Positions 13,910-58,861 of a DNA stretch of 64,000 nt are shown piece after piece (within the stretch, counting starts at the first letter, position 1; each line of letters opens with the position of its first letter). The DNA is taken from assembly GCA_006384855.1 (NCBI GenBank), contig VCJN01001098.1:1-64000 (forward strand), in the 5' to 3' direction. The notes below the pieces were generated by a model. It was not told the DNA's origin, did not search any database, and saw only the letters and a list, made by a program, of their open reading frames with translations. The translations under genes were made by a program, and so were the position numbers. The stretch is from Tetraselmis striata (taxonomy: Eukaryota > Chlorophyta > Chlorodendrophyceae > Chlorodendrales > Chlorodendraceae).

Positions 13910-16900
13910 TCAGCCCAGGAGGTCGCTCATGCGGACGCGGCGCTTGACGGCGTTGGTGTAGCCCTCGTGGAACTTGTAGAGCACGGGGCCGTGCTTGCCC
14001 TGCGCCGCCTGGCTCACAGCGACCTGGCTGCCGCCGCCACTGCCGTCCGCCGGCTTCCGGCTCGCCTGCTTCCGCTTGGAGCTCTGCTTGCGCAGCGTCT
14101 CCAGCCAGCTGCCGCCGCCGGCCGCCCTAGCGACGTCCGCCGGCGCGAGCTGCCGGTTGCTGGCCGACGACGCCTTGATGCGGTCCGCCAGGCGCACCTG
14201 CAGCGCCGCCGCGGGGGCGGCGCTACCGGCCGCCGCGCTGCCCGCAGCCTCCGTAGCCGGCTCGAACCCCTCCTCCATCGGCGCCTCGCCGTCGCCCTCT
14301 GCTTCCGTAGCAGCCTGGCGCATCGCGTATCCCACAGCATCGGCGCCCAATCACCGTCAGTATGCTGCCCCAAAGGCACGCCGGCCGGCCCAGAAGCCCC
14401 GTCCATGGCACCACGTGGCTCACATACCCCCTAGCGCTATCCAGTCGCAGTGCAGAAGCGAGGGCATGCGCGCAGCCAGCGGTCCTACTACCTGTGTTGT
14501 CACTGGCTGATGTGTATAATGCCAGGTTGCCTAGGAAGAGGACACTCGCATGCTGACCAAGCCTCTTCTCGTTCGCAAATCACTGGCGCTACTGCTAGCT
14601 GCCGCGCTGGCTCGCACAAGTCTATGAGCCCGCACGTGTGCTGCCAGCCTGCGCTTGACGGGGTAGATGGCGGGAGAAGAGGGGAGGAAGGGATGCTTGG
14701 AGAGGGAGGGCGGGGGGAGGTGGGGGGGAGGGGGGGGGGGAGGCTGTGGGCAGTGATAGCTAGAAGTACGCGCCAGGGGCTATAACTGGGACCCGCCACA
14801 GAGACAATCGGACCCAACGCAGACCCCCGGGTCAAACGCAGGAAAATACACCTTACCGAGTTTACATATACTGCACCGACCAAAACCATGCCACGTCAAA
14901 TGCGCGTAGAGATATCACATACCTGTAATAGTAACACATGAAAACAAACAAGGGTTATGTTACATTGCTATTAATCAAAAAATGGCATTGCTCTAAATCG
15001 GTGTCACGATGCTTGTTCTTGGTTCCTAAACAGGGTACAAACAAATGAAGGCGCACCAGTCCACCCCCCTAACCGATACATTTACATCTACACATACAGA
15101 ACCGATACATATAACCAATACATGCCCATGGTGATAGCTCGCCGGCATGCCGGATGGGACTGTGAAATCGAAGCTGCTCCGGTCACTCTCCGCAGGAGCG
15201 GCACAACGTACAGCCCACACTCGACTCTATCAACCGACTTATCGCCCTCTGCTTTCCGAAACAACGCCCCGGACATACCATCTCCACCTCCAAAATCTAT
15301 CCCCATGCAAAACACAACACTGACAATACACTACAGGCAATACGGTACACTACGCTGCAATATGATACAGCATAATCCTATGCAATACACTACACTACAC
15401 TACACTACACTACAATACAATGCAACGCAATACAATAAAATACAATGCAATACAATAAAAATTCAATACAATGCCATGCAATGCAATGCAATACAATTCA
15501 ATACAATGCCATGCAATGCAATGCAATGCAACGCAATACAATAAAATACAATGCAATACAATAAAAATTCAATACAATGCCATGCAATGCAATGCAATAC
15601 AATTCAATACAATGCAATGCAATGCAATGCAATCCAACGCAATACAATAAAATACAATAAAAATTCAATACAATGCCATGCAATGCAATGCAATACAATA
15701 AAATTCAATACAATGCCATGCAATGCCATGCCATGCAATGCAATGCAATGCAATATTAAATAGCACAATACAACATATTGTGCTATACAACAACACAACA
15801 ATAGCGAGAGGGGGGGAAGGAGGGGTGGGGTGGGAGGGGGGAGAGGAGAGAGAGAGAGAGAGATGGGAGGGGTCAAGGCGGTCAAGGGGGGTGATAGGGC
15901 GGAGCAGGGCGGGGGGGGGGGGGGGGGGGAAGGTGCTCACCCTGCCAGCGCGGCGGATCGTCTCGAGCGTGACCTCGTGCGCCACGCGGCGCAGAAACGT
16001 CTCCGGCAGCGCCTGCGTCACCGGGTGCTTCACGCCGCTGAAGCTCGTGAGCGCCTCCACGGGCGGGCAGAGCGGTGGCAGATGGTTGCCGCGGTTGGAG
16101 GGATCTGCCGCCCCGGGTGCGCACCAGAGGGGAGGGAGGGGGGGGGGAGGATTGTCAGCAGAGATCCGTGCCACCCGTGACTTCAACCGGGGAGTATTCT
16201 GGATGTTTGGTCGTCTTGTCGTTGGCATGGCCAGCTTCAGTATAAACACATACACATTTTCACTCTAGTGCAAGCGTTCCAACTGGTAGTGACAACACGC
16301 CGACATGAAGGCGACAAAGCAGAATAACTCGGTAGGGAGCTGATTGGTGGGATAATAGATGGCGATCGTCATGTGCGCTTGTTACGTCTTGGAAGAGTTG
16401 TTTGTAGTCTTGATCATGGACTGGGGGCAGGGGGGGGGGTGAGGGGAGGGGGAGGGGGGCGCACTCGCGAAGGTGGAGGTGGTGGTGAAGGTGAGGCCCA
16501 GCGTGATGAGCGTGTCCACTAGCTGCGCCAGCGAGCCCCGGTCGGCGGCGGACATGAGGTGCGGCGCGAGGGACTTGAAGGACGGCGCGACGATGGCCAT
16601 CAGCGCGGGCAGCAGCTCCAGCAGCGCGGGCGCGGCGCCGCCCATGGCGGACTGCAGGCCGGGCGCGAAGGAGGCGCGCCAGTGCGCGAGCAGTGTGCGG
16701 TTGGCCGCGCCGCGGCGCCGGGCGTCCGCGCCCGCGTGGGGCCAGCGCAGCTGGGCGCGGGCCTTCTGCGCGGCCAGGGAGCTGACGGCCAGGGAGAAGA
16801 AGGGCAGGTAGGCGAAGAAGGAGAAGTCGCTGCGCTTGTAGATGGTCCTTTCAAGCGCGGGGGAGTCGCAGGTCAAAGTCAACAACGAATTCATGGAACA

Positions 16901-24002: not shown

Positions 24003-25261
24003 AGTTTCTCCGGAAATCCGGTACCTACTACATAACATTTAATCGTAACTGCCTAATAAGAAGAGAGTTTATATACAATAAATGATACCAGAGTAGAACA
24101 GAAATTATAGGAAAACGCTAGAAGGGTGGCAAAATGCGGCCAGGCACTGCCGTTTGATTTTTGGCCACCTACAGGTACGCGCTTGTTCTTGATATTCGTC
24201 GTCGAGCTACCGCGGTAGCGCCGTCAGCCCGTAATCCGTGGGCGTATGTAAATAGTGCAGTCATCATCATATTATTCTGCTCTGCTATCATTCCCCTACC
24301 TCTTGGGTTGAGCGGAGGAAAAGGAGAGCCGCGTCCGAAATCTCCTGGAATACATGAGCATCGATACCGGTTGCAATACGGTTTTATCACGGATTTTTAG
24401 GCGTCCGTCCTCCGTCCTCCCCCAAACGCGCTTCGCGCATGAACCGTCATACGTTCGGTTTTCGCTCGTTTGATTTCACGGTACTGGTACGTGTACGGTA
24501 AGGTTCTGAATGGATGCGCGTGTATTCTAGCCCAGGCACGTCATATATTCGTCTAAAACGCCAAAATAACGCGGTACCGCAGCGCGTTTTTACTGCTGAA
24601 TCAGCAAGCGAGACTATTCAGCGACTATTCCTTACCTATACGGTAGTCCAAGTATGATGTGAAAGCCCCGATGTAAATATATCTTAAGTATGATGCTGTA
24701 AAAAGGGGTCGCCGCGGTGCGGGGGCAGTCCGCCGACCCGGGGCCCGGCGTCCGTCGACGGACGGGCGTCGGTCGAACGACGGCGTCCGACGTTCGGCGT
24801 CCGGTGCGACGGTACAGGCGGCGGGCATGGCGATTCGCGCCGTGCCCGCCCCGTAGACCTGACGACCGGCCCGACCTGCGCGGCCTCGTGCGGGATGCGG
24901 GCCGCCTGTAGGCGAGGCATGGAAAAATGAATAAACGTGTCTTCTCACTGCCACAGAAGCATTTATTATTAAGCCGGACACTGAACCGCGCGGTGCGCGC
25001 CAATGTACCCCGGTCCTCGCTCTCCTTGCGCCCCTCGCGGGGCGCGTATAACCTAGCGCCACACCCGCACAGCTAGGGCTTACACGCCCAGCCGCGGTGC
25101 AACGATATCGCGGTACAACGATATATCGTTTCAAATATTTTTAAAATACCTGTACCCAACAGTGACATTTTGCGCAGTGGCCGGGCGCGAGGTAGGAGTT
25201 CAAATCCAGAGCAGAAAATAAGGATCGCACTCGCGTTGATATTCCATTATTTTAAACGGCG

Positions 25262-25870
25262 ACCTCTGCCCTCGGCCGCCCTCTTGTAGTGCTGCCACCA
25301 CTCGGCAATTGTCCGCACCATGCTACCGGCGACTACAGCAGGCACCAAGGGGTCGCTTCAAGGACTCATCAGACGGTATAGGCGCATAACAAAGGTCCCA
25401 AAGGGGTCGAATGGTGTGCATAAGATGCTGTTGACGAATCTTATGGCACGCACACCATCGGCCAGCGTCACACCGCGATATGTCGCGCCACCGTCGGGAG
25501 GAGAGCCAAGCGAGGCTCCCCGCCCGACGAGCCCCAAGAACCGCCCTCGCCGGGCGAACAACATGAGGCTCACACCCCGAAGCCCTTATGGGATCGGATG
25601 CTGTCTCATGACCGGCGGCTTTTGCGCGTCTCTCCATACGATCGCGAGGCGCACTATGTTGTGCCGGCACACAAGAGTCACACATATCAACACAGCTGCA
25701 AAGACTTTGTCATTGTGGGTTTCAGATTCGTGAAGCAAGTTCTCTGGCAATGCGGACGGTATTACGCTCGGTTGGTGCGGCTCCGCTAGGGGTCGTGACG
25801 CATCTCCCGACCGGAGAGCATGCTTCCCGGACGCGGACTGGCCAGGTTGCACTGTGGCGGAGGTCAAGGG
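25262..25870 (+). other. ORF-like segment of the left palindrome arm
   Basis: A 137-codon open frame begins at 25,320 (MLPATTAGTKG) and its mirror image in the right arm begins in the same way at about 32,226 on the minus strand but then diverges in frame. Only about the first 70 residues agree (RRYRRITKVPKGSNGVHKM is shared). No domain is recognised, and frame conservation is weak, so this may be a relict of a coding segment or chance. Confidence 0.3.
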
Positions 25871-25969
25871 GGCAGGTACGGTAGTATTTTATCACCCACG
25901 GTCGTGCGTACAAGTAGTCGCTATATGCCGTTATTAAAATCATCAACCCCGGACAAAATGGCCCGACGG

Positions 25970-27055
25970 CACAGTGTTAGTCACGCTATATCGCGTCAAC
26001 GATAAATCGTTACAAATGCGGTAGCTTTTCATCACCCACAATCGTTATTACGAGTATGTCACCAACCCGGGCAGAAGTCACGCTATGTCGGGTCAACGTG
26101 ACATCGTTACAAGTCGTGAACGGCGGACATTATGCCAGGACCATAATAGTAATCATAACGATATATATCGTGTCAACGTTAAATCGTTGCAAGTGCGGTA
26201 GTAGTAATTAGTTTATCACCCATGGTCGTTCATCATACAAGTATGTCGCGTTGTTATCATCAACCCCGGACAATATGTCCGGACCGCACAGTATTAGTCA
26301 CGCTATATTGTGTCAACGATAAATCGTTACAAGTGCGGTATAGCTTTTTATTACCCACCATGATCGTTCATACGAGTATGTCACCAATCCGGACAATAGT
26401 CAGCACGCTATATCGGGTCAACGTGACATCGTTACAAGTCGTGAACGCCGGACATTATGTCCCGGGCGACAGTAACGATATGCCGTGTCAACGATAAATC
26501 GTTACATGTGATGTAGTGTTTTATCATCCACGGTCGTTCATACAAGTTAGTATATGTCGATGTTATCATCAACCCTGGACAGAAAGTCCCGACCGCAAAG
26601 CGTTAGTCACGCTATATCGTGTCAACGATAAATCGTTACAGATGATGTATCTTTTAGCACCCACGATCGTTCATACGAGTATGTCACCAGCCCGGGCAGT
26701 AGTCACGATACATCGGGTCAACGTGACATCGTTACAAGTCGTGAACGCCGGACATGTCCCGACAGTACTATGAACGATATATCGTGTCAACGATATTTCG
26801 TTACAAGGGCGGTAGTGTATTTTATCACTCGCGACCATTCATACGAGTATGGCCGTGTTATCGTGCTATCATCAACCCCGGACGACAGTGTTAGTAACGA
26901 TATAATGTATCAACGATCTGTCGTTACAAGTACATTAGTAAGTTACTTATCACCCACGTCATACAAGTATTCCATTATCAACGCCGGACATTGTGTCCCT
27001 AGCGCACAAGAGTGTAGGTAACGATGTATTATGTTAACGTTAAATCGACACAAGT
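25970..27055. repeat. Dyad-motif array, left arm
   Basis: About eleven irregular units of roughly 80-110 bp. Each carries the dyad CAACGATAAATCGTTACAAG or a variant, usually preceded by a second dyad such as CGATATATCGTG, and units alternate with a variant CAACGTGACATCGTTACAAG followed by GTGAACGCCGGACAT. ACGAGTATG and CCCGGAC-type words recur between them. No coding sense. Confidence 0.85.
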
Positions 27056-27064
27056 GTCATGTTG

Positions 27065-27150
27065 TATACAAGGTGATGGATGGAGGCATCGGCGGCGGCT
27101 GCGGAGGAGGCGGAGGTAGAGGAGGAGGCGGAGGAGGAGAAGCATGCCGA
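27065..27150 (+). repeat. GGAGGC/GGAGGA purine tract (left arm)
   Basis: A purine-rich trinucleotide tract whose inverted partner is the CCTCCT tract at about 30,385-30,540. The right-arm tract is longer, so the two have drifted by slippage. Confidence 0.85.
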
Positions 27151-28329
27151 CGGGAAAAGGGGGGTGTACTACGGATGTGAACAACAGAGACACATATGGG
27201 CATATTCGCATGCACCGTAGCAGTTGATACCATCATTATTGTAATTCAGTACCCACCTACTAGCTTTGCAAGGATCTGCGTGTCGTAGACTTGTGCGTTA
27301 GGTGATAGTTGGGGGGGGGGGGGGGGGGGGGCGAGACGGCATGCCTCGTGTCAGCGCGGAAGTAAGCAGAGTATCAAAGCTGTGTGCACCTATTTATACT
27401 TAATGTGCACATACTAGGTCAAATTGTAATCACGTTTTATCGTTGCAACGAATACTCGTGTAAGGCCGCTGGTGAAAGCCGGAATCTGAAGCGGGCGAGT
27501 CTAAAACGAGATGGATTTGACACGTGCATGAGTGCAATATAATGTAATGACGGCGGTGGGAAATCATCCAGAGCAGGGTTGAGGTAGCATGTAGAGTGAC
27601 ATTGTTGATATCAATCTGAAGATGCAAGACATGTAATTCTGCCCGCAGCTCGCTGTCCGCTCCCCGTTGCCCGCCGCCGGCTGCCCGCTGCCTTCTCGCT
27701 CACATGCTGCCGTACCTGCGCAAACACGACTAATCGTGTTCACGATTACTCGTGTTTATCTTGCTTTGCCCTAAAGCCAGCCTATTTTCACCCATGCGCA
27801 CGATGTGTTGGACTATCACTATTGTGCGCTTCGGGCATCCCGCTTTCAATCCGGGGCTGATGAAGTTGATGAAAACGCGCAAGTCTTGAAAACCCTAAAA
27901 GCCTACGGTGACAAGAAAACAACTATCTCACATGTAACGATTTACCCTTGACGCCACAACTCGTTACGAAGATTGTGTTGCGACGATATACCGTTGCGCC
28001 GATGATAGATGGTGTTTATTACGCCGGAAAAATACTGCAACGAATAATCGTGTGGCACGATACGTCGTCCATACAGGTCATGTAAGTTTTGCGCTCTGGC
28101 TCCGAAACCATGTAGTTATTGTGATGCGCCGCGGCGGGGTGTCGCGTGCATGCGGCGCAGAAGGGGGAGTTTGACGGACCGGATTGATGGGTGGTGGTGG
28201 TGGGGGGGATGGGGGGGTGTGTGATGAACCGACTCCATGGGAGTACGTTGGAGTGACATACTCAGGATGGGCGGCGTATCTCGGAAGATGTGCGATAGTA
28301 TACGCAATGCGCTATCGCGGTGATTACCA

Positions 28330-29160
28330 AATTTAGGGTGCCCACGCGAAATAGATGACATAAGCATTATTGTCTCCCAAAATGGCGAGGGAATCGCAAC
28401 ATTGTATGTGCATTGACGACACCTTGCAACCCCGACGCCATTCTGGTAGATAATGTGTGACGTCGGGTACGGTTGTCAATATATATGGTATTACACACCG
28501 TGTGACTATTATCACATGTGCCCGTGTGAAACCGGCGTCATGCATTACCTCCCAAAATGGCATAAGAATCGTAACACTGTATGTGCAATGACGACACCTT
28601 GCAACCCCGGGAATATTTTGGGAGATAATGTGTGAAGCCGGGTACGGCTGTCAATTTATGGTATTACACACCGTGTGATTATTACCACATGTGGCCACGT
28701 GAAACCGGCGTCATGCATAATCTCCCAAAATATCCCCGGGGTTGCAAGGTGTCGTCATTGCATATACAATGCTACGATTCGTCCGCCGTTTTGGGGGATA
28801 CTGCATGACGCCGGTTTCACATGGCCACTACATGTGGTATTAGTCACACGGTGTGTAATACCATAAATTGACAGCCGTACCTGGCTTCACACATTATCTC
28901 CCAAAATAACGCGGGGGTTGCAAGGTGTCGTCATTGCACATACAGTGTTACGATTCGTACGCCATTTTGGGAGGTAATGCATGACGCCGGTTTCACATGG
29001 GCACATGTGGTAATAATCACACAGTGTGTAATACCATAAAACGACAGTGAGCCGTACCCGGCGTCATACATTATCTATCAGAATGGCGTCGGGGTTGCAA
29101 GGTGTCGTCAATGCACATACAATGTTGCGATTCTTTCGCCATTTTGGGAGACAATAATGC
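28330..29160. repeat. Central inverted tandem array of the large palindrome
   Basis: Units of about 165-185 bp share GTTGCAAGGTGTCGTCATTG, ATGACGCCGGTTTCACATG and GTGTGTAATACCATAAATTG. Units left of about 28,760 run in one orientation and units to the right in the other, so the array itself is symmetric about the palindrome centre. Copies of the GTTGCAAGG word lie near 28,425, 28,605, 28,742, 28,916 and 29,094. Confidence 0.85.
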
Positions 29161-30384
29161 TTATGTCATATATTTCGCGTGGGCACCCTAAATTTGGTAA
29201 TCACTGCAATAGCGCATTGCGTATACTATCGCACATCTTCCGAGATACGCCGCCCATCCTGAGTATGTCACTCCAACGTACTCCCCTGAAGCCGGTTCAT
29301 CACCCCCCCCCCCCCCCACCCACCCATCAATCCAGTTCGTCAAACTCCGCCTTCTGCACCACACGCACGGACACCCCGCCGCGGCGCATCACGATAACTA
29401 CATGGTTTTGGAGCCAGAGCGCAAGACTTATATGACCTGTGTGAACGAGTGAACGACGTATCGTTGACACGATTATTCGTTGCAGTATTTTTCCGGCGTA
29501 ATAAACACCATCTATCATCGGCGCAACGGTATATCGTCGCAACACAATCTTAGGAACGATTTGTGGTGTCAACGTTAAATCGTCACATGCAGCATGTGAG
29601 ATAGTTGTTTTCTTGTCACCGTAGGCTTTAGGGTTTCCAAGACTTACGCGTTTTCATCAACCTCATCAGCCCCGGATTGAAAGCGGGATGCCCGAAGCGC
29701 ACAATAGTGATAGTCCAACACATCGTGCGCATGGGTGAAAATAGGCTGGCTTTAGGGCAAGCGAGCAAGATAAACACGAGTAATCGTGAACACGATTAGT
29801 CGTGTTTGCGCAGGTACGGCAGCATGTGAGCGAGAAGGCAGCGGGCAGCGGGCGGCGGGCAACGGGGAGCGGACAGCGAGCTGCGGGCAGAATTACATGT
29901 GTTGCATCTTCAGGTGGATATCAACAATGCCACTCTACATGCTACCTCAACACTGCTCTGGATGATTTCCCACCGCCGTTATTACATTGCACTCATGCAC
30001 GTGTCAAATCCATCTCGTTTTAGACTCGCCCGCTTCAGATTCCGGCTTTCACCAGCGGCCTTACACGAGTATTCGTTGCAACGATAAAACATGATTACAA
30101 TTTGACCCAGTATGTGCACATTAAGTATAAATAGGTGCACACAGCTTTGATACTCTGCTTACTTCCGCGCTGACACGAGGCATGCCGTCTCGCCCCCCCC
30201 CCCCCCCCCCCCCCCCGCCCTCCCAACTATCACCTAACGCACAAGTCTACGACACGCAGATCCTTGCAAAGCTAGTAGGTGGGTACTGAATTACAATAAT
30301 GATGGTATCAACTGCTACGGTGCATGCGAATATGCCCATATGTGTCTCTTTTGTTCACAGCCGTAGTACACCCCCCCCTCCCGT

Positions 30385-30540
30385 CGGCATGCTTCTCCTC
30401 CTCCTCCTCCTCCTCCTCCTCCTCTACCTCAGCCTCCTCCTCTACCTCCGCCTCCTCCGCAGCCGCCGCCGATGCCTCAGATGCCTCCTCCTCCGTCTCC
30501 TCCTCCTCCTCCTCCTCCGCTGCCGCCGATGCCTCCATCA
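30385..30540 (+). repeat. CCTCCT pyrimidine tract (right arm)
   Basis: Inverted partner of the purine tract at 27,065-27,150, expanded here. It opens serine-rich and leucine-rich frames that have no coding value. Confidence 0.85.
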
Positions 30541-30569
30541 CCCTATATACAACATGCCACTTGTATCGA

Positions 30570-31660
30570 TTTAACGTTGACATAATATATCGTTACCTAC
30601 ACTGTTGTGCGCTAGGGACACAATGTCCGGCGTTGATGATCGATGCAATATTTGTATGAACGTGGGTGATAATTAACTTACTACTGTACTTGTAACGACA
30701 GATCGTTGATACAATATATCGTTACTAACACTGTCCGGGGTTGATGATAGCACGATAACACGGCCATACTCGTATGAACGATCGCGGGTGATAACATACA
30801 CTACCGGCCTTGTAACGAAATATCGTTGACACGATATATCGTTCATAGTACTGTCGGGACATGTCCGGCGTTCACGACTTGTAACGATGTCACGTTGACC
30901 CGATGTATCGTGACTACTGCCCGGGCTGGTCACATACTCGTATGTACGATCGTGGGTGCTAAAAGATACATCATCTGTAACGATTTATCGTTGACACGAT
31001 ATAGCGTGACTAACGCTTTGCGGTCGGGACTTTCTGTCCAGGGTCGATGATAACATCGACATATACTAACTTGTATGAACGACCGTGGATGATAAAACAC
31101 TACATCACCTGTAACAATTTATCGTTGACACGGCATATCGTTACTGTCGCCCGGGACATAATGTCCGGCGTTCACGACTTGTAACGATGTCACGTTGACC
31201 CGATATAGCGTGCTGACTATTGTCCGGATGGGTGACATACTCGTATGAACGATCATGGTGGGTAATAAAAAGCTATACCGCACTTGTAACGATTTATCGT
31301 TGACACAATATAGCGTGACTAATACTGTGCGGTCCGGACATATTGTCCGGGGTTGATGATAACAACGCGACATACTTGTACGAACGACCGTGGGTGATAA
31401 ATAATTACCACTACCGCACCTGCAACGATTTAACGTTGACACGATATAACGTTTCTAATACTGTTGGGACATACTTTCCGGCGTTCACGACTTGTGACGA
31501 TGTCACGTTGACCCGATATAGCGTGACGTTTGTACGGGTTGGTGACATACTCGTAATAACGATTGGGTGATAAAAAGCTACCGAACTTGTAACGATTTAT
31601 CGTTGACGCGATATAGCGTGACTAACACTGTGCGGTCGGGACATATTGTCCGGGGTTCAT
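30570..31660. repeat. Dyad-motif array, right arm
   Basis: Mirror image of the left array: CTTGTAACGATTTATCGTTG followed by ACACGATATAGCGTG-type words, with the GTCACGTTGACC variant between. The order of variants follows that of the left arm, which shows the array existed before or at the inversion event. Confidence 0.85.
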
Positions 31661-32634
31661 GACATACTTGTACGAACGACCGTGGGTGATAAAATACTAC
31701 CGTACCCGTTCCCTTGACCTCCGCCACAGTGCAACCTGACCAGTCCGCGTCCGGGAAGCATGCTCTCCGGTTTGGAGATTCGTCACAACTCCTAGCGGAG
31801 CCGCACCAACCGAGCATTATACCGCCCGCATTGCGAGAGAACTTCACGAATCTGAAATATAACCCACAATGGCAAAGTCTTTGTAGCAAAGTGGGCCTCG
31901 CGGCCATCGGGAGAGACACGCAAAAGCCGATGGTCATGAGGCAGCATCCGATCCGATAAGGGCTTCGGGGTGTGAGCCTCATGCCGCTCGCTGGGCAAGG
32001 GCGGTTCTTGAAGCTCGTCGGGCGGGGGAGCCTCGCTTGGCTCTCCTCCCGACGGTGACGCGACATGTCGCCGGGTGACGCTCGCCAAGGGTGTGCGTGA
32101 TATAAGATTCGCCAACAACATCTTATGCACACCATTCGACCCCTTTGGGACCTTTGTTATCCGCCGATACCGTCTGATGCGTCCTTGATGCGACCCCTTG
32201 GTGCCTGCTGTAGTCGCCGGTAGCATCGTGCGGACTATTGCCGAGTGTGGCAGCACGAGAGGAGGGCGGCCGAGGGCAGAGGACGGCCGTTTAAAATAAT
32301 GGAATATCAGCGCGAGCGCGATCTTATTTTCTGCTCTGGATTTGAACTCCTACCTCTCGCCCGGCGACCGCGCAAAATGTCAATGTCGCTATTTTAAGGT
32401 ATTTTATTTAAAATATTTGAAACGATATATCGTTGCACCGCGATATCGTTGCACCGCGCGGCTGGGCGGGTAAGCCCTAGCTGTGCGGGTAGGACGCTAG
32501 GTTATACGCGCCCCGCGAGGGGCGCAAGGAGAGCGAGGACCAAGGTACATTGGCGCGCACCGCGCGGTTCAGTGTCCGGCTCAATAATAAATGCCTCTGT
32601 GGCAGTGAGAAGACACGTTTATTCATATTTCCAT

Positions 32635-33266
32635 AAATGCATGTTAATATGACAGTAAAGCTCGCCCTGTAGTAGGCTTTTCCCTTCCCCAGTACTTTCC
32701 GTGGATTCTCTGGACGCTCTCCCCGAGTCCCTGTAGCGATGATCTTCACGACTACAGCAATGCAGATTATAAAGCGTTGTATTACTGCGATATGCACGCA
32801 TTTTATTCGTTCAAATCCAAGCCTAAACGGGACTGTAATAACCCGATCCTCGCGTAACGCGCGCCGCCGCCTTCGGCACCGGAGAGAAACGACGCGATAT
32901 CGCAATATATCACGCGGCAGCACGGCGACGAACGATGCCGCCGAGCGACGGCAAATGCTGAGGCGGCGCGCAGCATGGACTCTTTCGGCGACGGCGGCGC
33001 TCGAAACCAACTACACGGTGGTGCGCACCGGTTCGGCGCGACACTGTGGGTCGACGGCGCGCGGTTGCAATAGTGCTGGGATATCCGGTGCGAGTGGGTG
33101 AAGCGACTTGACTGTCTGGTTCGCTGCTGCCAGCGATCAGCAGCAAGGGTGCCCGGCGGTGCTATCTGTGCCGGGGCACAGCGCTTTCCAGAGTGATGGG
33201 CAGCGATTTGTCTTGGCGCTGAACAACCATCAGGAACACACAGCCGCAGTGCGGCGCGTCCGCGCA
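32635..33266. other. Intergenic region upstream of the RNA polymerase gene
   Basis: Lies between the palindrome edge and the RPOT start codon. It is moderately GC-rich with no recognised ORF, and presumably contains the RPOT promoter. No clear TATA box was seen. Confidence 0.5.
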
Positions 33267-36200: not shown

Positions 36201-38400
36201 CACCCCAGAACAGACAATACGCGCCGCGTTTGACGTTGTGTCCGTCTCTGTCTGCAGTTCCAAAAAGCGAGGAAGAAGAACTACGAGCTTCATTCCCTCC
36301 GCTGTGATACAAAGTACAAACTCGAGGTGATGCCATGATGCCCCCCCCCCCCCCTCCCAGCGGTCCAATGCGTTTCACTCGCCCCCCAGCTTGACATGAT
36401 GCCCTGTGCTGCTGCAATGCCAAGGTGGCGGAGGAGCTCCAGGACGAGCCGGCGATTTACTTTCCGCATAACGTGGACTTTCGCGGCCGTGCCTACCCAA
36501 TGCACCCGTACCTGAACCACCTGGGAGCGGACATGTGCCGAGGCATGCTGCAGTTTTCGGACGCGCGGCCTCTCGGCGAAAAGGGCCTCGAATGGCTTTA
36601 CGTCCAGGCACGCCGCCCCCACACCCCCAGGCGGATGACGCGCCGCACAGCGCCTCCCTTGCCGCTGCCCGCCATGCTGCCTGCCTTGTTGTTAGCCAGC
36701 GTGGCATGGGCGCAGACTGCGCTGCGCGTCCATGTCAGGCATGCGGCTGCGGGACTTTGATCCCAATGTGCCATTTGGGAATACAGTCAGGTGGCTGGCG
36801 GATTGCGTGAAGGACCCCGGTAACATTGTCCGCACGTTTTGCCGGCGCAGGCGGCGAACCTCTACGGCGCGAGCAAGATGTCGCTCGCGCAGCGGAAGCA
36901 ATTCATCGCCGACCACCTCGATGACGTCGTCGACTCTGCGGAGAGCCCGCTGCAAGGGGGGCGGTGGTGGCTGGGCGCGGACGAGCCGTGGCAGTGCCTC
37001 GCCGTGTGCATGGACATCAACCGCGCGATCAAGAGCGAGGATCCCGTGCACTACATGAGCCACCTGCCCGTCCACCAGGTGGCTGGCCCACGTTGCCTGT
37101 GCGCACATGACCTCCTGGGAGCAGGTGCACCGACATCCGGGGCGGGCGGTCTCACCCGATTCCACCCATGCGCGCATTTGCAGGACGGGTCATGCAACGG
37201 GCTGCAGCATTACGCCGCGCTGGGTCGAGACTCGTCCGGCGGCCGCGCCGTGAACCTGACGGACGTCGACAAGCCGCAGGACGTGTACAGCGGCATCGCG
37301 GAGATGGTGGCCGCCAAGGTGGCCGAAGACGCCGCCAACGGCCTCCTGCCAGCCAAGCTGCTACTGGGCAACGTTGATCGGAAGCTCGTGAAGCAAACCG
37401 TAAGAATCGCCATCAGCCACAGACAGTACCGTGTCTCCCATTCCGCCACGTACTTGTCTCCGCCCTCCAGGGGGGTCGGGGGGTCCACCCTCCTGAGGGG
37501 GTTGCCGTCTTTGCTGCCAGCTGATCGTTGCTGGATCGTTGCCGTGCCGGTACAGGTCATGACGAGCGTGTATGGTGTGACGTTTGTTGGCGCGCGGGAG
37601 CAAATCGCGAGCAGGTTGCGGGACCGCGGGTGGGAGGACGACCGCTTGATCTACCAGGCCAGCAAGTACGGGGCGCGGATGACCATGGACAAGCTGCACG
37701 AGATGTTCCAGTCGGCGAAGTACATCATGAACTGGCTCGCGGATTGCGCGCGCGCGGTCGCGGCGTCCAAGCAGCCCGTGGCGTGGACGACGCCGATGGG
37801 GCTCCCGGTGGTGCAGCCGTACCGACGCAACGACAAGCAGGTGGTGACGACGGTGCTGCAGCGCATGGTCCTCAAGAACCACTCCGAGGACACGCCCATC
37901 ATGAAGCAGCGGCAGCGCTCGGCCTTCCCGCCGAACTACATCCACTCCATCGACTCCACGCACATGATGATGACCGCCATCGCATGCCGCGAGATGGGGC
38001 TCAGCTTTGCGGGCGTCCACGACTCGTTCTGGACGCACGCGGGCACCATCGAGACCATGAACAGCGTGCTGCGCAAGACGTTCCTGGAGCTGCACAGCCG
38101 CCCACTTCTGGATGAGCTGCTGGAACAGCTGCAGGTGCGGCCCCACATGCCGTATACACCCCCTCCCGGCTCCTCTGAGTTCGCCACCCGCGAACCTTTC
38201 CTCTTGTTTCAGCCAACACGTGCCTGCTCCCCCCCCCCCCCCCCCCTTTCCCATGTCCGATGCCCCCGCATTCTAATCCGTCCCCTCGCACACTGCCCAA
38301 CAAACAGACGCAGTACCCGGAAGTCGAGTTCCCGCCAATCCCCCCAACGGGCGACCTCAAGTTGGAGGAGGTGAGCAACGCAAAGTACTTTTTCAGCTGA
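33267..38400 (+). CDS. RPOT: Single-subunit (T7-type) organellar RNA polymerase
   Basis: Nuclear-encoded phage-type RNA polymerase that transcribes the mitochondrial (possibly plastid) genome. Exons: 33267-33716, 33833-34033, 34236-34335, 34479-34549, 34662-34817, 34972-35106, 35201-35470, 35595-35783, 35897-36133, 36258-36326, 36425-36607, 36851-37078, 37184-37399, 37556-38134, 38308-38400. Phases all agree: 1,058 residues, near the usual 950-1,100. The N-terminus ([15 protein letters not shown]) looks like an organelle transit peptide. Catalytic residues are present: Asp764 in [14 protein letters not shown], Lys833 and Tyr841 in VKQTVMTSVYG, Asp991 in HDSFWTH, and the C-terminal [20 protein letters not shown] is the family signature. 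The exon 11 donor is GC (CAG|GCACGC), required by alignment of WLYVQ with AANLYG. Met at 33,291 is an alternative start. Convergent with the PRC-barrel gene. Confidence 0.95.
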
Positions 38401-46080: not shown

Positions 46081-46694
46081 GGCCTCGCGTTATTGGGTGT
46101 TGTTGAGAGCGCAGAGGCGTGAAGGAGTCAACGGCCCGATAGCGTCCGCGACCTCATCCTCGGCTGACGACAACCTGACGCACGTCACTTAGTAGAGGAG
46201 GGGCGGCCCCTGCGGTAGGGGAAGGCCCTGAGGCTGGAGGTAACTCATGTATTGGTACCTATACTATTGTATGAATGATATGCACCGCGATATAACATAG
46301 GTAATAAAACGTGAAAATGATGACGGGCGAAATAATTGTTCGATGTGACGACAACGACGGAAGCATGATGGGCTAAGCTGTACTTCACCTGTTGGTCCCT
46401 ACTTCAGATATGCATAGTGAGTTTCTCACATCAGAGCCTTATTTAATAATATATGCCCGCTAATAACAACAGTCCTAATAACAGCAATTGTGAAAGGTTG
46501 CCAGCAAAAGAGAGACATAAGCATGGATCCAAGGGTCAAGCAAGAGCGAGGCCGTGGAGCCAAGAACCAAGGAAGAGCCACGGAAACAGGAAGCCACCAT
46601 CAAGTCGCCAAGGAACCAAAGGGTCCAAGGAAGCATTGAAAGCCAAGGAACGACAAAAAAACCGAAAGGGAAACATAAAACCAATGGCGACCAC
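46081..46694. other. AT-richer stretch next to repeat U copy B
   Basis: No recognised gene. A purine-rich part (about 46,540-46,660) repeats CCAAGGAA-type words and opens a basic frame starting at 46,453, which runs into repeat U and so is unlikely to be a gene. Confidence 0.45.
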
Positions 46695-47317
46695 CACTGT
46701 GAGATTCAGATGTGACATACGGGTGACGAACGAAGCACTACTACTAGCGACTATTATTTATCCGTGAAGGCTGCTGCTGGTGGCGGCACGTCCATCCAGT
46801 TACGTGCGAGTACATCCGGCGTTATTGCCGGCGGGCGATAAATCCTTTTTGTCATCATTCTGGTAGTCGTACTAGCCCGGGGAATTGTTACATGGCACTG
46901 ACGTATAAGGTACAAGGTTGTCCGTGTAGTACCGGGTAGTACGCGATATATTTATTAAGCCGGTACCGGGTATCTAGTACGAACCCGGGCGCGATGACGA
47001 GTCGTCCTGTGGATAACTACGACTATTAGTACATGGGAGCGCAAATCTCAGCCGTACCATTCGGCCAAAGTGGGGAATTTTGTGTACATTATAGCTAGTA
47101 CTGCTGAACGGGCCTGCCAGCCGTCCGATCAAAGGTCATCAGATGGGCGGTTTGGCTGCCATGTTTTGCCAAAGAGTGCTCACGTTACATAAATATTCGC
47201 GAGGGGTAGGGCGGGGGCAGGCAGCGGTTTGCCGAAGAATGTTTGAATTACAATATTCGCGACAGCTGCCGTCGGGGCATGTGGCGGGGGGGGGGGGGGG
47301 GGGGGGGGCGGGCGGGC

Positions 47318-47348
<31 letters not shown>

Positions 47349-47610
47349 GCCGCCCGCCGCTCCCGCCGGGGGAGTGAGGGGAGGGGGGTAAGGGGGCGGG
47401 GGCTACTGCTTGTTCTTGTTCTTGCGTGCCCGGGGGACCCTCCGCTTCGACGATCTCGCTGCCTCCGCCTCCGCCTCCGCCTCCGCCTCCGCCTCCGCCT
47501 CCGACTCCGCCTCCAACTCCGCGACCGTCAATTTCTTACCTCGGCGCTTCTTCACTAACCTCTTCCGCTTCTTGTCATCCGCCAGTGTCTTCACCACCCC
47601 GGGAGGCTGT
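46695..47610 (-). repeat. Repeat U, copy B (full, minus orientation)
   Basis: A complete 916-bp unit in reverse orientation to copy C (54,811-55,718). It starts with CACTGTGAGATTCAGATGTG and ends with GGGAGGCTGT. It includes the TAATAAATATATCGCG region, the TATTCGCGAGGG segment, a G-run followed by a C-run (47,284-47,347) and the lysine-rich ORF (47,597-47,403, minus). Directly beyond it, at 47,611, the same CACTGTGAGATTCAGATGTG end begins again, so two units were once joined head to tail. Confidence 0.9.
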
Positions 47611-51492: not shown

Positions 51493-52304
51493 GTGTTGCT
51501 CCACATGCGGTGCGGTTCCTGACGCGACAGCTCCGTCGCACCAGTACCGGCGCCGGCACCCCACGCCTGTTGGGCTTACCACCAACCGGCATGTTTCCTT
51601 TGGGAGGCGGTTCATCCGCGTCGGAGGTGAGCGGCGGTGCCTGTGTGGGTGTGGATACTGCCCGGCCATTAGGGCTCCCGCCGCCTGCCGCTCCGCCGAC
51701 CCACGCCGCGGCGTGTGCTGCGCCCCGCATAGTCGCCTCGAATATAATATACATGACGCGGGGACGGGGGGGGGGGGGGGGATTCGTGCGTTTCGTATGT
51801 CGGCGGAAAGGCGTGCGAAGCTGCGGCTGGCGAAGGTGGTGGAAGTAAGCGTGGCGGCGTCGGCGGCGTATTACCGTGCGTGCATGCGTGCGCAACCCCG
51901 CGGCAGCAAGCGCCGGACTCGGCGTGTGCCAGCGGCAGAGCTGCGAAGCCATGGACACGGTACGGGATGCCAAGTCTGGCTAAGCAACTGCCGAGGCTGG
52001 CGGCTTAACCCCCATGTCCGGCGGTTGAGGGACGGAAAGTGCGTAGAAGTTGATCGGGAAAACGGGCATATAAGCCTGGCTGTGCTAGGTTCCTATTAAG
52101 TAATGGCGGTTTGTGCTAAGTAATTCGTAGGGGTAGACCATGCAGCGCAGGTAGGGGGCGGTATAAATGAGGCCGGGCACATATACTGCTCCACGAAACG
52201 ACACTGTCGCACGTGTAGTTGAATAGACGCCCCCCCCCCCCCCCCCCCCCGCCGGGTCGGCCCGCCGGGTCGGCCCGCCGATCCGCCACGGCATGTAATA
52301 TCTG
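51493..52304. other. Region between cysteine-rich ORF and palindrome
   Basis: No supported gene. A plus-strand frame is open from 51,422 to 52,099, with a basic, alanine-rich translation that overlaps the ORF above. A G-run lies at about 51,767-51,781 and a C-run at 52,231-52,250. The short direct repeat CGGGTCGGCCCGC lies at 52,253-52,276. Confidence 0.4.
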
Positions 52305-52535
52305 TCATGCATCGCCGGGGGTATGTGTGAGTGGATGCCCCGCCGCCACATCCCCCCCCCCACCCCCCCCCCCCCCCCCATTTACACTTGTGCACTCGTT
52401 AAGTTTGGGCTGGTTTCGGAGCAGTACATGTACGTATGTATATACATACAATGGAACGTAGGACCTGCGCGGAAAGAGGCGGGGCTGGCGGAGTGCGTTG
52501 GGGGTGCGTAGAGTAGCGTGTTGGTGAGATTCGGG

Positions 52536-53995
52536 GTGCATCGGACGCCGGATGCCCATCCACCCAGCGTAAAAGACGCGTACGTAATATTCACACTATA
52601 TATATTCACACGCAAATGTGTGAAAACCGGACATTCCGTGCCGGATGGGTGGGAATACGGCGTCCGATGCAGCCAAAACCCCAGCAACACGCTATTCTGC
52701 GCACCGCCAATGCACTCCGCCAGCACCGCCTCATTCTCTGTCGATTTCGAAAACGCCTTCACATTATCCACCGCTTATTGCAATTGCCACCGTGTAATGT
52801 TGTCACGATGTGCGCACACAACAACACTTACTACCGGTTCCGACGCGGATGGAGGCGAGGCTTGCGGAGTGCGTTGGGGGTGCGTAGAGTAGCGTGCTGC
52901 AAATAATTGGGGTGCATCGGACGCCGGATGCCCACCCACCCGGCGTAAAAGACGCGTAATATTCACACTGCTTTATTAACACACAAATGTGTGAAAACCG
53001 GACATTCCGTGCCGAATGGGTGGGAATACGGCGTCCGATGCAGCCAAAACCCCAGCAACACGCTATTCTGTGCACCGCCAATGCACTCCGCCAGCACCGC
53101 CTCATTCTCTGTCGATTTCGAAAACGCCTTCACATTATCCACCGCTTATTGCAATTGCCACCGTGTAATGTTGTCACGATGTGCGCACACAACAACACTT
53201 ACTACCGGTTCCGACGCGGATGGAGGCGAGGCTTGCGGAGTGCGTTGGGGGTGCGTAGAGTAGCGTGCTGCAAATAATTGGGGTGCATCGGACGCCGGAT
53301 GCCCACCCACCCGGCGTAAAAGACGCGTAATATTCACACTTTATTAACACACAAATGTGTGAAAACCGGACATTCCGTGCCGAATGGGTGGGAATACGGC
53401 GTCCGATGCAGCCAAAACCCCAGCAACACGCTATTCTGTGCACCGCCAATGCACTCCGCCAGCACCGCCTCATTCTCTGTCGATTTCGAAAACGCCTTCA
53501 CATTATCCACCGCTTATTGCAATTGCCACCGTGTAATGTTGTCACGATGTGCGCACACAACAACACTTACTACCGGTTCCGACGCGGATGGAGGCGAGGC
53601 TTGCGGAGTGCGTTGGGGGTGCGTAGAGTAGCGTGCTGCAAATAATTGGGGTGCATCGGACGCCGGATGCCCATCCACCCGGCGTAAAAGACGCGTAATA
53701 TTCACACTGCTTTATTAACACACAAATGTGTGAAAACCGGACATTCCGTGCCGGATGGGTGGGAATACGGCGTCCGATGCAGCCAAAACCCCAGCAACAC
53801 GCTATTCTATGCACCGCCAATGCACTCCGCCAGCACCGCCTCATTCTCTGTCGATTTCGAAAACGCCTTCACATTATCCACCGCTAATAATTGCAATTGC
53901 CACCGTGTAATGTTGTCACGATGTGCGCACACAACAACACTTACTACCGGTTCCGACGCGGATGGAGGCGAGGCTTGCGGAGTGCACTGGCGGTG
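52536..53995 (+). repeat. Four tandem units of about 370 bp (left arm)
   Basis: Unit starts, marked by GGTGCATCGGACGCCGGATG, lie near 52,536, 52,911, 53,281 and 53,650 (periods 375, 370, 369). Inside each unit two half-units of about 90 bp face each other: GCGGAGTGCGTTGGGGGTGC ... GCATCGGACGCCG on one side and CGGCGTCCGATGC ... GGTGCACCGCCAATGCACTC-like sequence on the other. Between them is an AT-rich TTTATTAACACACAAATGTG core. Each unit is thus an inverted duplication. Confidence 0.9.
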
Positions 53996-54280
53996 CACAG
54001 ACTAGCGGGAGACTAGATCCATTGTCGCTTATTTACAAGCACGGGCGGTGCTGCCAGACCTGATCGTCTACGGCCGATATAATATTCACACTATATTAAC
54101 ATCGGTGCACACCGCCGCACACCGCCGCACACCGCCGCACAACGCTGCGCGCGCACATTCGTCGCACACATTATCCCGGATTCACTCGCCGTATCCATTA
54201 CGCCGTGCTACTTCAACAATAAACATTGCGAAATTACACCGACACAATGCCGCACCGACTAGCTCTTGACAATACGTGCA

Positions 54281-54288
54281 TATAAATA
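54281..54288 (+). promoter_or_regulatory. TATA box, left arm (TATAAATA)
   Basis: A canonical TATAAATA about 150 bp upstream of the ATG at 54,430 and pointing at repeat U. It is mirrored exactly at 56,227-56,234. Confidence 0.5.
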
Positions 54289-54429
54289 GTAGTGGCGCGC
54301 TGCTCCTCGCCTCCGATGTGTCGTTGATTGCTGCGGAAGGCGGTCGCCGACTGGGTGTTAGTTTCTCCACCTCGGCCGCCCCCCCCGCCCCCCCCCCGCC
54401 CCCCCCCCCCCTTCACCGCTCACAGCGCC

Positions 54430-54718
54430 ATGGCCGACCTCGCCCCCCCGGGCAAAAGTGGGCGGCGAGCCTTGCTGTCTCGCGTGTCCGCGCCGCCGGC
54501 ATCGAGGAGGACGAGAAAGACATGAGGAAACGCGTGACAAGGTGGGCGCGCAACAAAACACTCCATCCTCCACATTAGCACGCACCCACTCGTGGCTATC
54601 TTGTGCCGCGCGCAGGTTCGTCCGGGAGCGCCGTAAGGCCCACCTCAACGCCAAGGCTTCCACAGTGCCAGCGGCGCAACTCGTGGTGGCCGAGGAGGCC
54701 GCATCCTCAGCCGCTTAA
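54430..54718 (+). CDS. Small candidate gene, left arm, unknown product
   Basis: After the TATA box the first useful ATG is 54,430 (MADLAPPGKSGRR). A GT-AG pair (ACAAG|GTGGGC at about 54,542; GCGCGCAG before GTTCGTCCGG at 54,616) joins DEKDMRKRVTR to FVRERRKAHLNAKAS, ending VVAEEAASSAA and a stop at 54,716-54,718. The ATG at 54,430 is not in the frame of DEKDM, so the 5' part is unresolved; an ATG at 54,522 gives a basic peptide of only about 40 residues. The same layout is kept in the mirrored copy. Product unknown, basic and helical; it could be a relict exon set. Confidence 0.3.
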
Positions 54719-54745
54719 AGGCGAAACGATTGTGGCTTGTTGTGG

Positions 54746-55012
54746 ATGTCTGTGCACAGGGGGCGTCCCGACGCGAAGGTAAGGAAGCTCATGGCGGCGT
54801 CGTCGACGGCACAGCCTCCCGGGGTGGTGAAGACACTGACGGATGACAAGAAGCGGAAGAGGCCAGTGAAGAAACGCCGAGGTAAGAAACTGACGGTCGC
54901 GGAGTCGGAGGCGGAGTCGGAGGCGCAGGCGGAGGCGGAGGCGGAGGCGGAGGCAGCGAGATCGTCGAAGCGGAGGGTCCCCCGGGCACGCAAGAACAAG
55001 AACAAGCAGTAG
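54746..55012 (+). CDS. Lysine/glutamate-rich ORF across arm and repeat U
   Basis: Open from MSVHRGRPDAKVRKLM through TDDKKRKRPVKKRRGKK and an AE-repeat to RVPRARKNKNKQ stop, 88 codons. It begins in the left arm and ends inside repeat U, so its 3' part recurs as the minus-strand frame 47,597-47,403 in U copy B, where the AE-repeat is longer (slippage) and the frame is conserved. The basic, low-complexity composition suggests a nucleic-acid-binding tail. It may be the last exon of the arm gene just upstream. No family is recognised. Confidence 0.4.
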   Translation: MSVHRGRPDAKVRKLMAASSTAQPPGVVKTLTDDKKRKRPVKKRRGKKLTVAESEAESEAQAEAEAEAEAARSSKRRVPRARKNKNKQ

Positions 55013-55718
55013 CCCCCGCCCCCTTACCCCCCCCCCCCCCCCCCCAGGCGGGAGCGGCTGGCGGCGAGGGGGGGCGGGGGGGGGCGGGGCGGGCGTGGTC
55101 CCCCCGCCCCCGCACACACCCCCCCCCCCCCCCCCCCCCGGGGCCACATTCCCCGATGGCAGCTGTCGCGAATATTGTATTTCAAACATTCTTCGGCAAA
55201 CCGCTGCCTGCCCCCGCCCTCCCCCTCGCGAATATTTATGTCACGTGAGCACTCTTTGGCAAAACATGGCAGCCAAACCGCCCATCTGATGACCTTTGAT
55301 CGGACGGCTGGCAGGCCCGTTCAGCAGTACTAGCTATAATGTACACAAAATTCCCCAGTGTTACCAAATACGTACGGCTGCGATTTGCGCTCCCATGTAC
55401 TAATAGTCGTAGTTATCCACAGGACGACTAGGGTTCGTACTAGATACCCGGTACCGGCTTAATAAATATATCGCGTACTACCCGGTACTACGCAGACAAC
55501 CTTGTACCTTATACGTCAGTGCCATGTAACGCTTGACCGGGCTGGTACGGCTACCAGAATGATGACAAAAAGGATTTATCGCCCGCCGGCAATAACGCCG
55601 GATGTACTCGCACGTAACTGGATGGACGTGCCGCCACCAGCAGCAGCCTTCACGGATAAATAATAGTCGCTAGTAGTAGTGCTTCGTCACCCGTATGTCA
55701 CATCTGAATCTCACAGTG
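54811..55718 (+). repeat. Repeat U, copy C, at the centre of the young palindrome
   Basis: A full 908-bp unit from ACAGCCTCCCGGGG to CATCTGAATCTCACAGTG. It matches copy B (46,695-47,610, inverted) and copy A (1-482). Homopolymer tracts in the middle differ in length among copies, while the distal part (55,204-55,718) is well conserved. Left arm, U and right arm meet at GGCACA, present at the inner end of both arms. Confidence 0.92.
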
Positions 55719-55813
55719 TGTGCCATCGACGACGCCGCCATGAGCTTCCTTACCTTGGCGTCGGGACGCCCCCTGTGCCCAGACGCCCACAACAAGCCAC
55801 AATCGTTTCGCCT

Positions 55814-56102
55814 TTAAGCGGCTGAGGATGCGGCCTCCTCGGCCACCACGAGTTGCGCCGCTGGCACTGTGGAAGCCTTGGCGTTGAGGTGGGCCTTACG
55901 GCGCTCCCGGACGAACCTGCGCTCGGCACAAGTTAGCCACGAGTGGGTGCGTGCTAATGTGGAGGATGGAGTGTTTTGTTGCGCGCCCACCTTGTCACGC
56001 GTTTCCTCATGACTTTCTCGTCCTCCTCGATGCCGGCGGCGCGGACACGCGAGACAACAAGGCTCGCCGCCCACTTTTGCCCGGGGGGGCGAGGTCTGCC
56101 AT
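55814..56102 (-). CDS. Small candidate gene, right arm (mirror of 54,430-54,718)
   Basis: Mirror copy of the left-arm candidate, with the same ATG (56,102), the same candidate intron borders and the same VVAEEAASSAA end. A few substitutions separate the copies (for example one changing the residues before MRKRVTR). Both copies point inward at repeat U. Status is as for the left copy. Confidence 0.3.
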
Positions 56103-56226
56103 GGCGCTGTGAGCGGTGAAGGGGGGGGGGGGGGGGCGGCCGAGGTGGAGAAACTAACACCCAGTCGACGACCGCCTTCCGCAGCAGTCAACGACACATC
56201 GGAGGCGAGGAGCAGCGCGCCACTAC

Positions 56227-56234
56227 TATTTATA
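56227..56234 (-). promoter_or_regulatory. TATA box, right arm (TATAAATA on minus strand)
   Basis: Exact mirror of 54,281-54,288, about 125-150 bp upstream of the mirrored ATG. Confidence 0.5.
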
Positions 56235-56544
56235 TGCACGTATTGTCAAGAGCTAGTCGGTGCGGCATTGTGTCGGTGTAATTTCGCAATGTTTATTGTT
56301 GAAGTAGCACGGCGTAATGGATACGGCGAGTGAATCCGGGATAATGTGTGCGGTAGGGCGCGCGTATATGTGCGCGACGAATGTGCGCGCGCAGCGTTGT
56401 GCGGCGGTGTGCGGCGGTGTGCGGCGGTGTGCACCGATGTTAATATAGTGTGAATATTATATCGGCCGTAGACGATCAGGTCTGGCAGCACCGCCCGTGC
56501 TTGTAAATAAGCGACAATGGATCTAGTCTCCCGCTAGTCTGTGC

Positions 56545-58015: not shown

Positions 58016-58233
58016 CCCGAATCTCACCAACACGCTACTCTACGCACCCCCAACGCACTCCGCCAGCCCCGCCTCTTTCCGCGCAGGTCCTACGTTCCAT
58101 TGTATGTATATACATACGTACATGTACTGCTCCGAAACCAGCCCAAACTTAATGAGTGCACAAGTGTAAATGGGGGGGGGGGGGGGGATGTGGCGGCGGG
58201 GCATCCACTCACACATACCCCGGCGATGCATGA

Positions 58234-58861
58234 CCATGGTGTGCATCCTCGTCACGGAGATATATTAAAACAATACATACGATAATGGTGCGGGTCCCTG
58301 AAACCTCATAAATCAAGCTCATTCTGGAGGTTTCACAGCATGCCCGCAGGATTTGCGTAATGTTACTTAGATTCACCAGTGACGATTATGCGTATGTGAA
58401 GTACGGACCAGCAGCTGAAATCTATGGCTATTATTTAGCCCAGGCATACCGTACCGGTACAGCGCAATGATGCTAGCTGGGAGCGCCATCAGCAGAATTA
58501 ATAAGCATCCAAACCGACTACTGTACATATGCTCCAAGCCCTGTCCAAACAAATTTTCAAGGCCAAACATAATAGTGATAAAATATTCCTTCAGTGCGGT
58601 CATGCCGCCGTAGACCTCATCAGCACAGCGCGCCGCGACACCGCGCCGACATCGTCGTGGGCTAGTCAGGTTAGCGGCGCGCATGCGATGCAAGACCTCA
58701 AGCTAATAACAACTGCCGGGTTTATTCACGAACACATTACCCCTGCACCGCTTCCCATACAACAGGCCGGTCCCTGCTGCTGTGCGTCGAGCACAGCGAC
58801 GGGACAGCACGGCCCCGAGCCGGCGGCGTCGCTTCAGTGAAAACGGCGCGGCAATAATATT
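58234..58861. other. AT-richer region upstream of the RUS gene
   Basis: No recognised gene. It probably contains the RUS promoter. A minus-strand frame (58,693-58,373) encodes a short hydrophobic stretch but has no family match. Confidence 0.5.

Follow-up and report, generated by a model that had tools for sequence, protein, structure and literature searches.

Near the middle of the 64-kb stretch of Tetraselmis striata DNA analyzed here (the window, on a contig labeled C871 in a draft genome of 224 Mb and 2903 contigs) lies a palindrome of 7.7 kb whose arms have clearly diverged. Such a structure raises the question of what it is and how a long palindrome, an unstable configuration, comes to have arms that differ. 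Our analysis indicates that it is very probably one copy of a dispersed, non-autonomous family of foldback DNA transposons. This reading is carried by direct observations: further copies in the genome, their nearly fixed ends, 8-bp target-site duplications, separate arm lineages in the main subfamily, and a double-dyad motif.

Overall architecture of the palindrome

The element consists of two long inverted arms, each rich in internal repeats, which join at the center without a protein-coding middle. Its parts in the window copy are as follows.

24914..32639, no strand: whole palindromic element, 7726 bp; ends set by aligning other copies
24914..24952, forward: left terminus, GAGGC-ATGGAAAAATGAATAAACGTGTCTTCTCACTGCC; from comparison of copy ends
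32601..32639, reverse: right terminus, CATTT-ATGGAAATATGAATAAACGTGTCTTCTCACTGCC (read on the reverse strand); from comparison of copy ends
24914..28759, forward: left arm; from self-comparison, arm alignment and axis
28760..32639, reverse: right arm (inverted); from self-comparison and arm alignment
25881..27063, forward: array of ~300-bp repeats with double-dyad sites, left arm; from self-comparison and repeat analysis
30550..31662, reverse: array of ~300-bp repeats with double-dyad sites, right arm; from self-comparison and repeat analysis
27080..27170, forward: purine-rich (GGA) tract, left arm; right-arm complement at 30395-30530
27311..27331, forward: G homopolymer, left arm; right-arm C run at 30193-30216
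28369..29181, no strand: central array of ~176-bp units straddling the axis; from self-comparison
25290..25733, forward: open reading frame (ORF)-like segment, left arm; probably non-coding (no Pfam match; codon and indel tests)
31792..32349, reverse: ORF-like segment, right arm; probably non-coding on the same grounds

Self-comparison of the window returned 61 inverted pairs, and the inverted arms span the whole element. Among the matches listed (25 of the 61), for example, positions 26233-26883 are complementary to 30733-31383 at 98%, and 24919-25096 to 32457-32634 at 95%. A global alignment of the arms contains 6.1% mismatches over 3730 aligned positions and 33 gap events, with mismatches of about 8–10% in the outer and central parts and 2–5% in mid-arm. 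The best local axis, with 35 of 60 positions paired, lies at 28759.5; the outer arm pairs are centered slightly to the right of 28760 because of indels. The arms meet within the central array, and there is no single-copy middle domain.

These results bear out most of what an initial annotation, made by eye, had described: inverted arms, which self-comparison and arm alignment now confirm from end to end, an inversion about 28,760, an arm difference of 8–10%, which was a fair estimate, and the order of the blocks (GC-rich edge, ORF-like segment, dyad array, purine tract, homopolymer, central array), all of which are present. Of the extent given there, 24919..32634, the palindrome itself stands but the exact ends do not, since the other copies place each of them 5 bp further out.

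A dispersed family with nearly fixed ends and target-site duplications

A genome search with the left arm found matching sequence on at least 23 contigs including that of the window, a minimum figure, as no more than 29 of the 235 candidates were scored; the 22 other contigs were read in part or whole. As assembled, 16 copies have both ends on one contig, with lengths from 4.0 to 20.6 kb, the longest of which carry inserts. One end of a copy begins with GAGGC and the other with CATTT, both continuing into ATGAATAAACGTGTCTTCTCACTGCC. The few exceptions are the left end of C1094 (GTGGC), the right ends of C1701 and C171 (altered), the right end of C1487 (truncated), and C765, which has two CATTT ends. 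The 26-bp core of the ends occurs at 53 places in the genome with up to 3 mismatches, and its reversed control at none. More diverged ends are also present (155 candidates, 40 scored), including a 7.2-kb copy on C1254. The end motif has no exact match in viral contigs.

Among the 15 copies in which both ends are readable, six are flanked by a perfect 8-bp target-site duplication. This is GTCACTAC in C388 and GACGGTTG in C1318; in some of the other four, one neighboring base is ambiguous. The six duplications have no common sequence.

Copies with their own 8-bp duplication: C388, C1318, C1682, C187, C1025, C1728
Copies without one: C871 (window), C777, C1693, C210, C171, C1701, C1487, C765, C1094

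The initial annotation had offered a fold-back element family and a relict inverted duplication among its options and had called for a search for copies with the same ends. The copies, their nearly fixed ends and the duplications speak for the former, and the existence of other copies refutes a duplication confined to one locus.

Separate histories of the two arms

In a tree built from the outermost 760 bp of 30 arm ends, nine left arms of the main subfamily form one clade (support 97/94) and 14 of its right arms a second (99/99). The left and right arms of a single copy are 90–92% identical in nine of ten copies (81% in C187), whereas the same arm is 94–100% identical among seven young copies, the value of 100% coming from C871 and C777, which share that DNA. 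Judged by this tree, the arms of the main subfamily diverged before most copies arose and were then carried along together. Because left and right arms form separate clades in the main subfamily, the 9–10% divergence seen in the outer arms has been passed on over many transpositions; it is therefore old, while the insertion itself need not be. This explains how a long palindrome can have diverged arms. The initial annotation had taken the arm difference as a sign that the structure survived for a long time despite the instability of palindromes. The age of the divergence is upheld, but it did not accumulate at this site and was instead inherited through copying.

A double-dyad motif in both arms

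Both arms carry a double dyad of the form ACGA-N4-TCGT-N4-ACGA-N4-TCGT, about 34 bp long with a consensus of about GTNACGATATATCGTGTCAACGATAAATCGTTAC, in which four ACGA/TCGT half-sites follow one another at 8-bp steps. The single dyad ACGA-N4-TCGT occurs in exact form 25 times in the element and once in the other 56 kb of the window, against 0.15 expected by shuffling. With up to two mismatches allowed, 31 pairs of dyads lie 16 bp apart, five lie 17 bp apart, and no other distance up to 40 bp has more than six. The double dyad at up to two mismatches has 23 matches in the window, all inside the element (0.00 in shuffles), and at up to one mismatch it is found at 331 places genome-wide, compared with one for the reversed pattern. 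Of 17 contigs examined, 15 have no exact single dyad outside the element; the other two are C388 and C1487, where the interval used did not take in the whole element. Double-dyad sites are located in the arrays (19) and also outside them (8), and the motif is therefore not a mere by-product of array growth. The following sites illustrate both locations.

26774..26801, forward: perfect double dyad, left array; motif scan
27726..27753, forward: perfect double dyad outside the array, left arm; motif scan
29453..29480, reverse: perfect double dyad outside the array, right arm; motif scan
29776..29803, reverse: perfect double dyad outside the array, right arm; motif scan
30815..30842, reverse: perfect double dyad, right array; motif scan
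25102..25129, forward: subterminal double dyad, left, 2 mismatches; right counterpart at 32422-32449

Across 22 copies, the fixed positions of the double dyad differ by 5.7%, compared with 9.2% in the flanks, and 26 of 7646 shifted placements match the 5.7% figure. An earlier comparison (3.1% versus 9.2%), from which alignments above 93% had been excluded, was set aside as biased because its positions had been chosen by motif match in the reference.

Coding content and the search for a mobilizing enzyme

All 33 stop-to-stop ORFs of at least 80 amino acids that overlap the element were compared with Pfam at E ≤ 0.01. None contains a domain above the cut-off, although exons shorter than 80 amino acids would escape such a scan, and this agrees with the initial description of an element devoid of transposase and reverse transcriptase. 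The sole match, below the cut-off, was to SNAPC2 (19 bits versus 25.5), in a low-complexity CTC reading of 30303-30659. In the ORF-like segment, 121 of 136 gap events have lengths not divisible by three (the alignments overlap, so the events are not independent), and a codon-phase test gave a slightly higher third-position rate in two of four readings, with no consistent periodicity. We rejected a coding role for the arms on these three grounds, namely the lack of a Pfam match, the lack of consistent codon periodicity, and indels that are mostly not in threes; the ORF-like segments of both arms are probably non-coding, and members of the family seem to carry no genes of their own. Rfam returned no match in the window at the gathering threshold.

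The inserts and surroundings of other copies were included in the search. Nine ORFs within the inserts of C1701, C1487, C388, C1682 and C1318 had no match, a scan that did not cover parts of these inserts or most of the insert in C1693. Of six ORFs beside copies (three on C2846, two on C1682 and one on C2738), the one on C2738 contains an exostosin domain above the cut-off and one on C2846 has three matches below it. Genome-wide, the Kyakuja-Dileera-Zisupton (KDZ) transposase domain PF18758 had no matches, but its controls were silent too, and the same holds for the P-type domain PF21787 and its control genomes.

Two candidate relatives were rejected. On C1277, 99 bp that almost match the left end continue into coding sequence, which at first suggested an autonomous copy, but the sequence beyond the end is an exon of dynein light chain LC8 and not of a transposase; we regard this locus as a gene fusion, capture or insertion. 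The 99-bp stretch occurs there twice (L059 and L060, C1277:9660-10110 and 24520-24960; 98% and 100% identical to the left end), each time leading directly into an LC8 gene. The two junctions are separated by 14.8 kb and have almost identical outer flanks, the LC8 gene has an intron as judged by eye, and its reading frame runs past what we take to be the usual LC8 end. On C2633, only about 41 bp of an element end are present before another repeat begins. This fragment (L048, C2633:42700-47700) is situated between an (ATGAAT)n microsatellite and another dispersed repeat, and a 314-amino-acid ORF further in is gag-like by eye only.

Exchanged flanks and the join in the window

The window copy has no duplication of its own; instead, its left flank pairs with the right flank of C1693. 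We compared 399 left-right flank pairs, with the right flanks of C1701, C171 and C1487 and the left flank of C1094 excluded and compared by eye. Among the 399 pairs, three cross-contig matches of at least 8 bp were found and none of 6-7 bp. In the pair formed by C871-left and C1693-right, 7 bp match and an eighth base is one that the element shares; the other two pairs join C1693-left with C626-right and C2846-left with C1098-right. Two sets of contigs also share long stretches. C777 and C871 have the right arm and 1.5 kb of flank in common (3953 bp, 0 mismatches, 14 gaps), a stretch that stops no more than 15 bp short of the end of contig C777. C626 and C1693 are 100% identical over 1.5 kb, including the end of a nested insert, yet have four differing positions in the first 3.5 kb of the element versus 34 in the rest. 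These shared stretches and crossed duplications lead us to conclude that flanks were exchanged between near-identical copies.

The nested insert of C626 and C1693 is a copia-type retrotransposon (RVT_2; L022, L018, L021), located in the left arm at the same point in both, and the reverse transcriptase found in these two copies belongs to it. On C765, the copy with two CATTT ends (L039, C765:26500-36400) has flanks that mirror each other over at least 1.2 kb, with 4 mismatches and 30 gaps; C765 may be a fold-back read artefact or part of a larger palindrome.

The join between the left and right halves of the window copy is probably either an assembly switch between copies, which we prefer, or an ectopic exchange. 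In the latter case, recombination between copies would have turned the join into a translocation or inversion breakpoint with exchanged duplications. The three cross-contig pairs among 399, with none at 6-7 bp, count in favor of this, and Galileo offers a parallel, its inversion breakpoints having exchanged duplications and chimeric copies (PMC2775673). Set against this, the gap-only overlap of C777, free of mismatches and located at a contig end, is typical of unresolved assembly, and we consider ectopic recombination a possible but less favored origin of the join.

Alternative explanations for the palindrome

The same observations could be extended to the palindrome as a whole, as an artefact of fold-back reads (missed adapters) or of assembler switching. 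The mismatch-free overlap of C777 and C871, the change in identity between C626 and C1693, the pairing of the window's left flank with C1693 and the mirrored flanks of C765 would all fit. However, six copies hold both arms between the two halves of a single 8-bp duplication, and at many loci the outer arms show the same difference of about 9–10% and the same unlike terminal letters, a pattern that fold-back reads could not generate. An artefact may thus explain the window's join and C765 but not the family, and as an account of the palindrome it is quite improbable; the warning of an assembly artefact in the initial annotation was apt for the join and not for the palindrome as such.

The dyad arrays also invite a reading as targets of a site-specific (tyrosine) recombinase, through which the palindrome would invert or amplify. 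The loxP and FRT sites have 13-bp arms around an 8-bp spacer. The double dyad allows a 13-8-13 division as well, in which a spacer similar to GTGTCAAC keeps one sense throughout an arm and is reversed in the opposite arm. Past the right end of the C1682 copy there is a weak integrase-like ORF (L046, Pfam E 0.026, below the cut-off), but it does not form part of the element. Other spacers occur at most of the sites that lie outside the arrays, and the 8-bp target duplications point to a transposase, which leaves this idea very improbable. Dense, conserved dyads resemble iterons as well, and the initial annotation had suggested a replication- or segregation-related locus; copies that are numerous, dispersed and accompanied by insertion duplications speak against a replication or centromere-like function, to which we give almost no credence.

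Comparison with known foldback transposons

Several observations weigh against the interpretation as a non-autonomous transposon family. No transposase or autonomous partner was found via the end motif or via KDZ, hAT, MULE or P domains, with most of the genome unread. An 8-bp target duplication is characteristic of hAT elements, and the length observed here fits, but of 327 candidate hAT matches 150 were scored, and none of these lies closer than 40 kb to a known end (C1693). The genome contains 45 MULE matches, the nearest about 57 kb from a known element end; among the matches listed, a MULE and dyad sites on C617 are separated by 31 kb. A duplication of their own is missing from nine of the 15 copies that could be compared, that of the window included, and the outermost 5 bp differ between the ends (GAGGC versus CATTT), which is unusual for a cut-and-paste transposon. 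In the tree, left and right arms are mixed in a second group of four (C2738 right, C237 left, C1728 right, C171 right), both C1094 arms cluster together, and the left arm of C187 stands apart, so that the separation of arms is limited to the main subfamily. The double dyads appear only moderately conserved across the aligned copies once reference bias is removed, and their binding by a transposase is something we infer as probable.

The features of the foldback class are nevertheless present: long inverted terminal repeats able to fold back, tandem subrepeats (a ~300-bp array in each arm and a ~176-bp array at the center), and dispersed copies with a target-site duplication (8 bp in 6 of 15). 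Those of long terminal repeat (LTR) retrotransposons are not, in line with the initial annotation, which saw no LTR: the arms are inverted rather than direct, the ends read GAGGC..AAATG, and the 33 element ORFs contain no reverse transcriptase. The palindrome is thus of a known kind, distinguished by its size, its lack of a middle, its unlike terminal letters and its double-dyad arrays.

Tetris of Drosophila virilis (PMC4079207) is a non-autonomous foldback element with no conserved ORF and a partner transposase that was not found. It has long inverted arms, tandem repeats of ~220 bp and duplications of 8-10 bp, which its authors judged to be Mutator-like. The present family resembles it in being apparently gene-less, in its long inverted arms with tandem repeats, in its target duplications and in its missing partner transposase, but differs in its sequence, its arms of ~3.8 kb, its double dyads and the absence of a distinct middle domain. 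A middle domain, which in Tetris is variable in size, is something we do not regard as a defining trait of the class. Galileo, a P-superfamily element of Drosophila, has long, internally repetitive inverted ends, within which a transposase domain binds several sites (PMC3688188), and chimeric copies with exchanged duplications (PMC2775673). Such ends, and duplications exchanged between copies, are shared with our family, whereas the 7-bp duplication of Galileo with its consensus GTAGTAC is not; here it is 8 bp without shared sequence. Mutator-type foldbacks such as Tm1 (PMC3169594) likewise have long inverted ends, but none of the 45 MULE domains lies near a known end of the present element. 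At the level of titles and the beginnings of abstracts, the papers listed in literature searches included no foldback family recognizable as this one; the motif itself was not searched for.

We propose that a transposase encoded elsewhere recognizes the ends together with the many double-dyad sites in both arms, and that the same enzyme would pair the arms and move the element. The double dyad could give specificity to a multimeric transposase, as has been proposed for repeats in the Galileo ends. The family shows a multi-kilobase palindrome passed on as a mobile unit whose two arms have separate histories, which bears on how long palindromes persist in the nucleus, and the double-dyad motif offers a concrete handle for finding the mobilizing enzyme. 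Since the palindromes are near-identical, the family is liable either to exchanges among its copies or to switches during assembly, and it marks sites where the draft assembly, or the chromosomes, exchanged flanks. A more far-reaching view, which we consider unlikely, is that these elements form a distinct lineage of fully palindromic transposons, a new superfamily rather than a deleted derivative, with ~34-bp operators of four half-sites, a dyad-binding transposase and two different termini, the arms being separate lineages for that reason.

Other features of the window

A second palindrome of different sequence occupies 52304-58234. Its arms, 52304-54813 and 55719-58234, are 95.8% alike and contain ~372-bp tandem repeats in about four copies per arm, and its 0.9-kb center is also found at 46684-47610 and partly at 1-482. 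An exon at 36839-38374 encodes part of a mitochondrial RNA polymerase of the phage type (PF00940, E 4e-139); like the LC8 gene with its intron, it indicates a eukaryotic host. In the genome, the volvocine marker domain DUF3707 had no matches, with its controls silent too, and an 18S pattern had none either. A satellite at 15413-15754 is made up of 5-bp units resembling CAATG and has a higher-order period of 106 bp.

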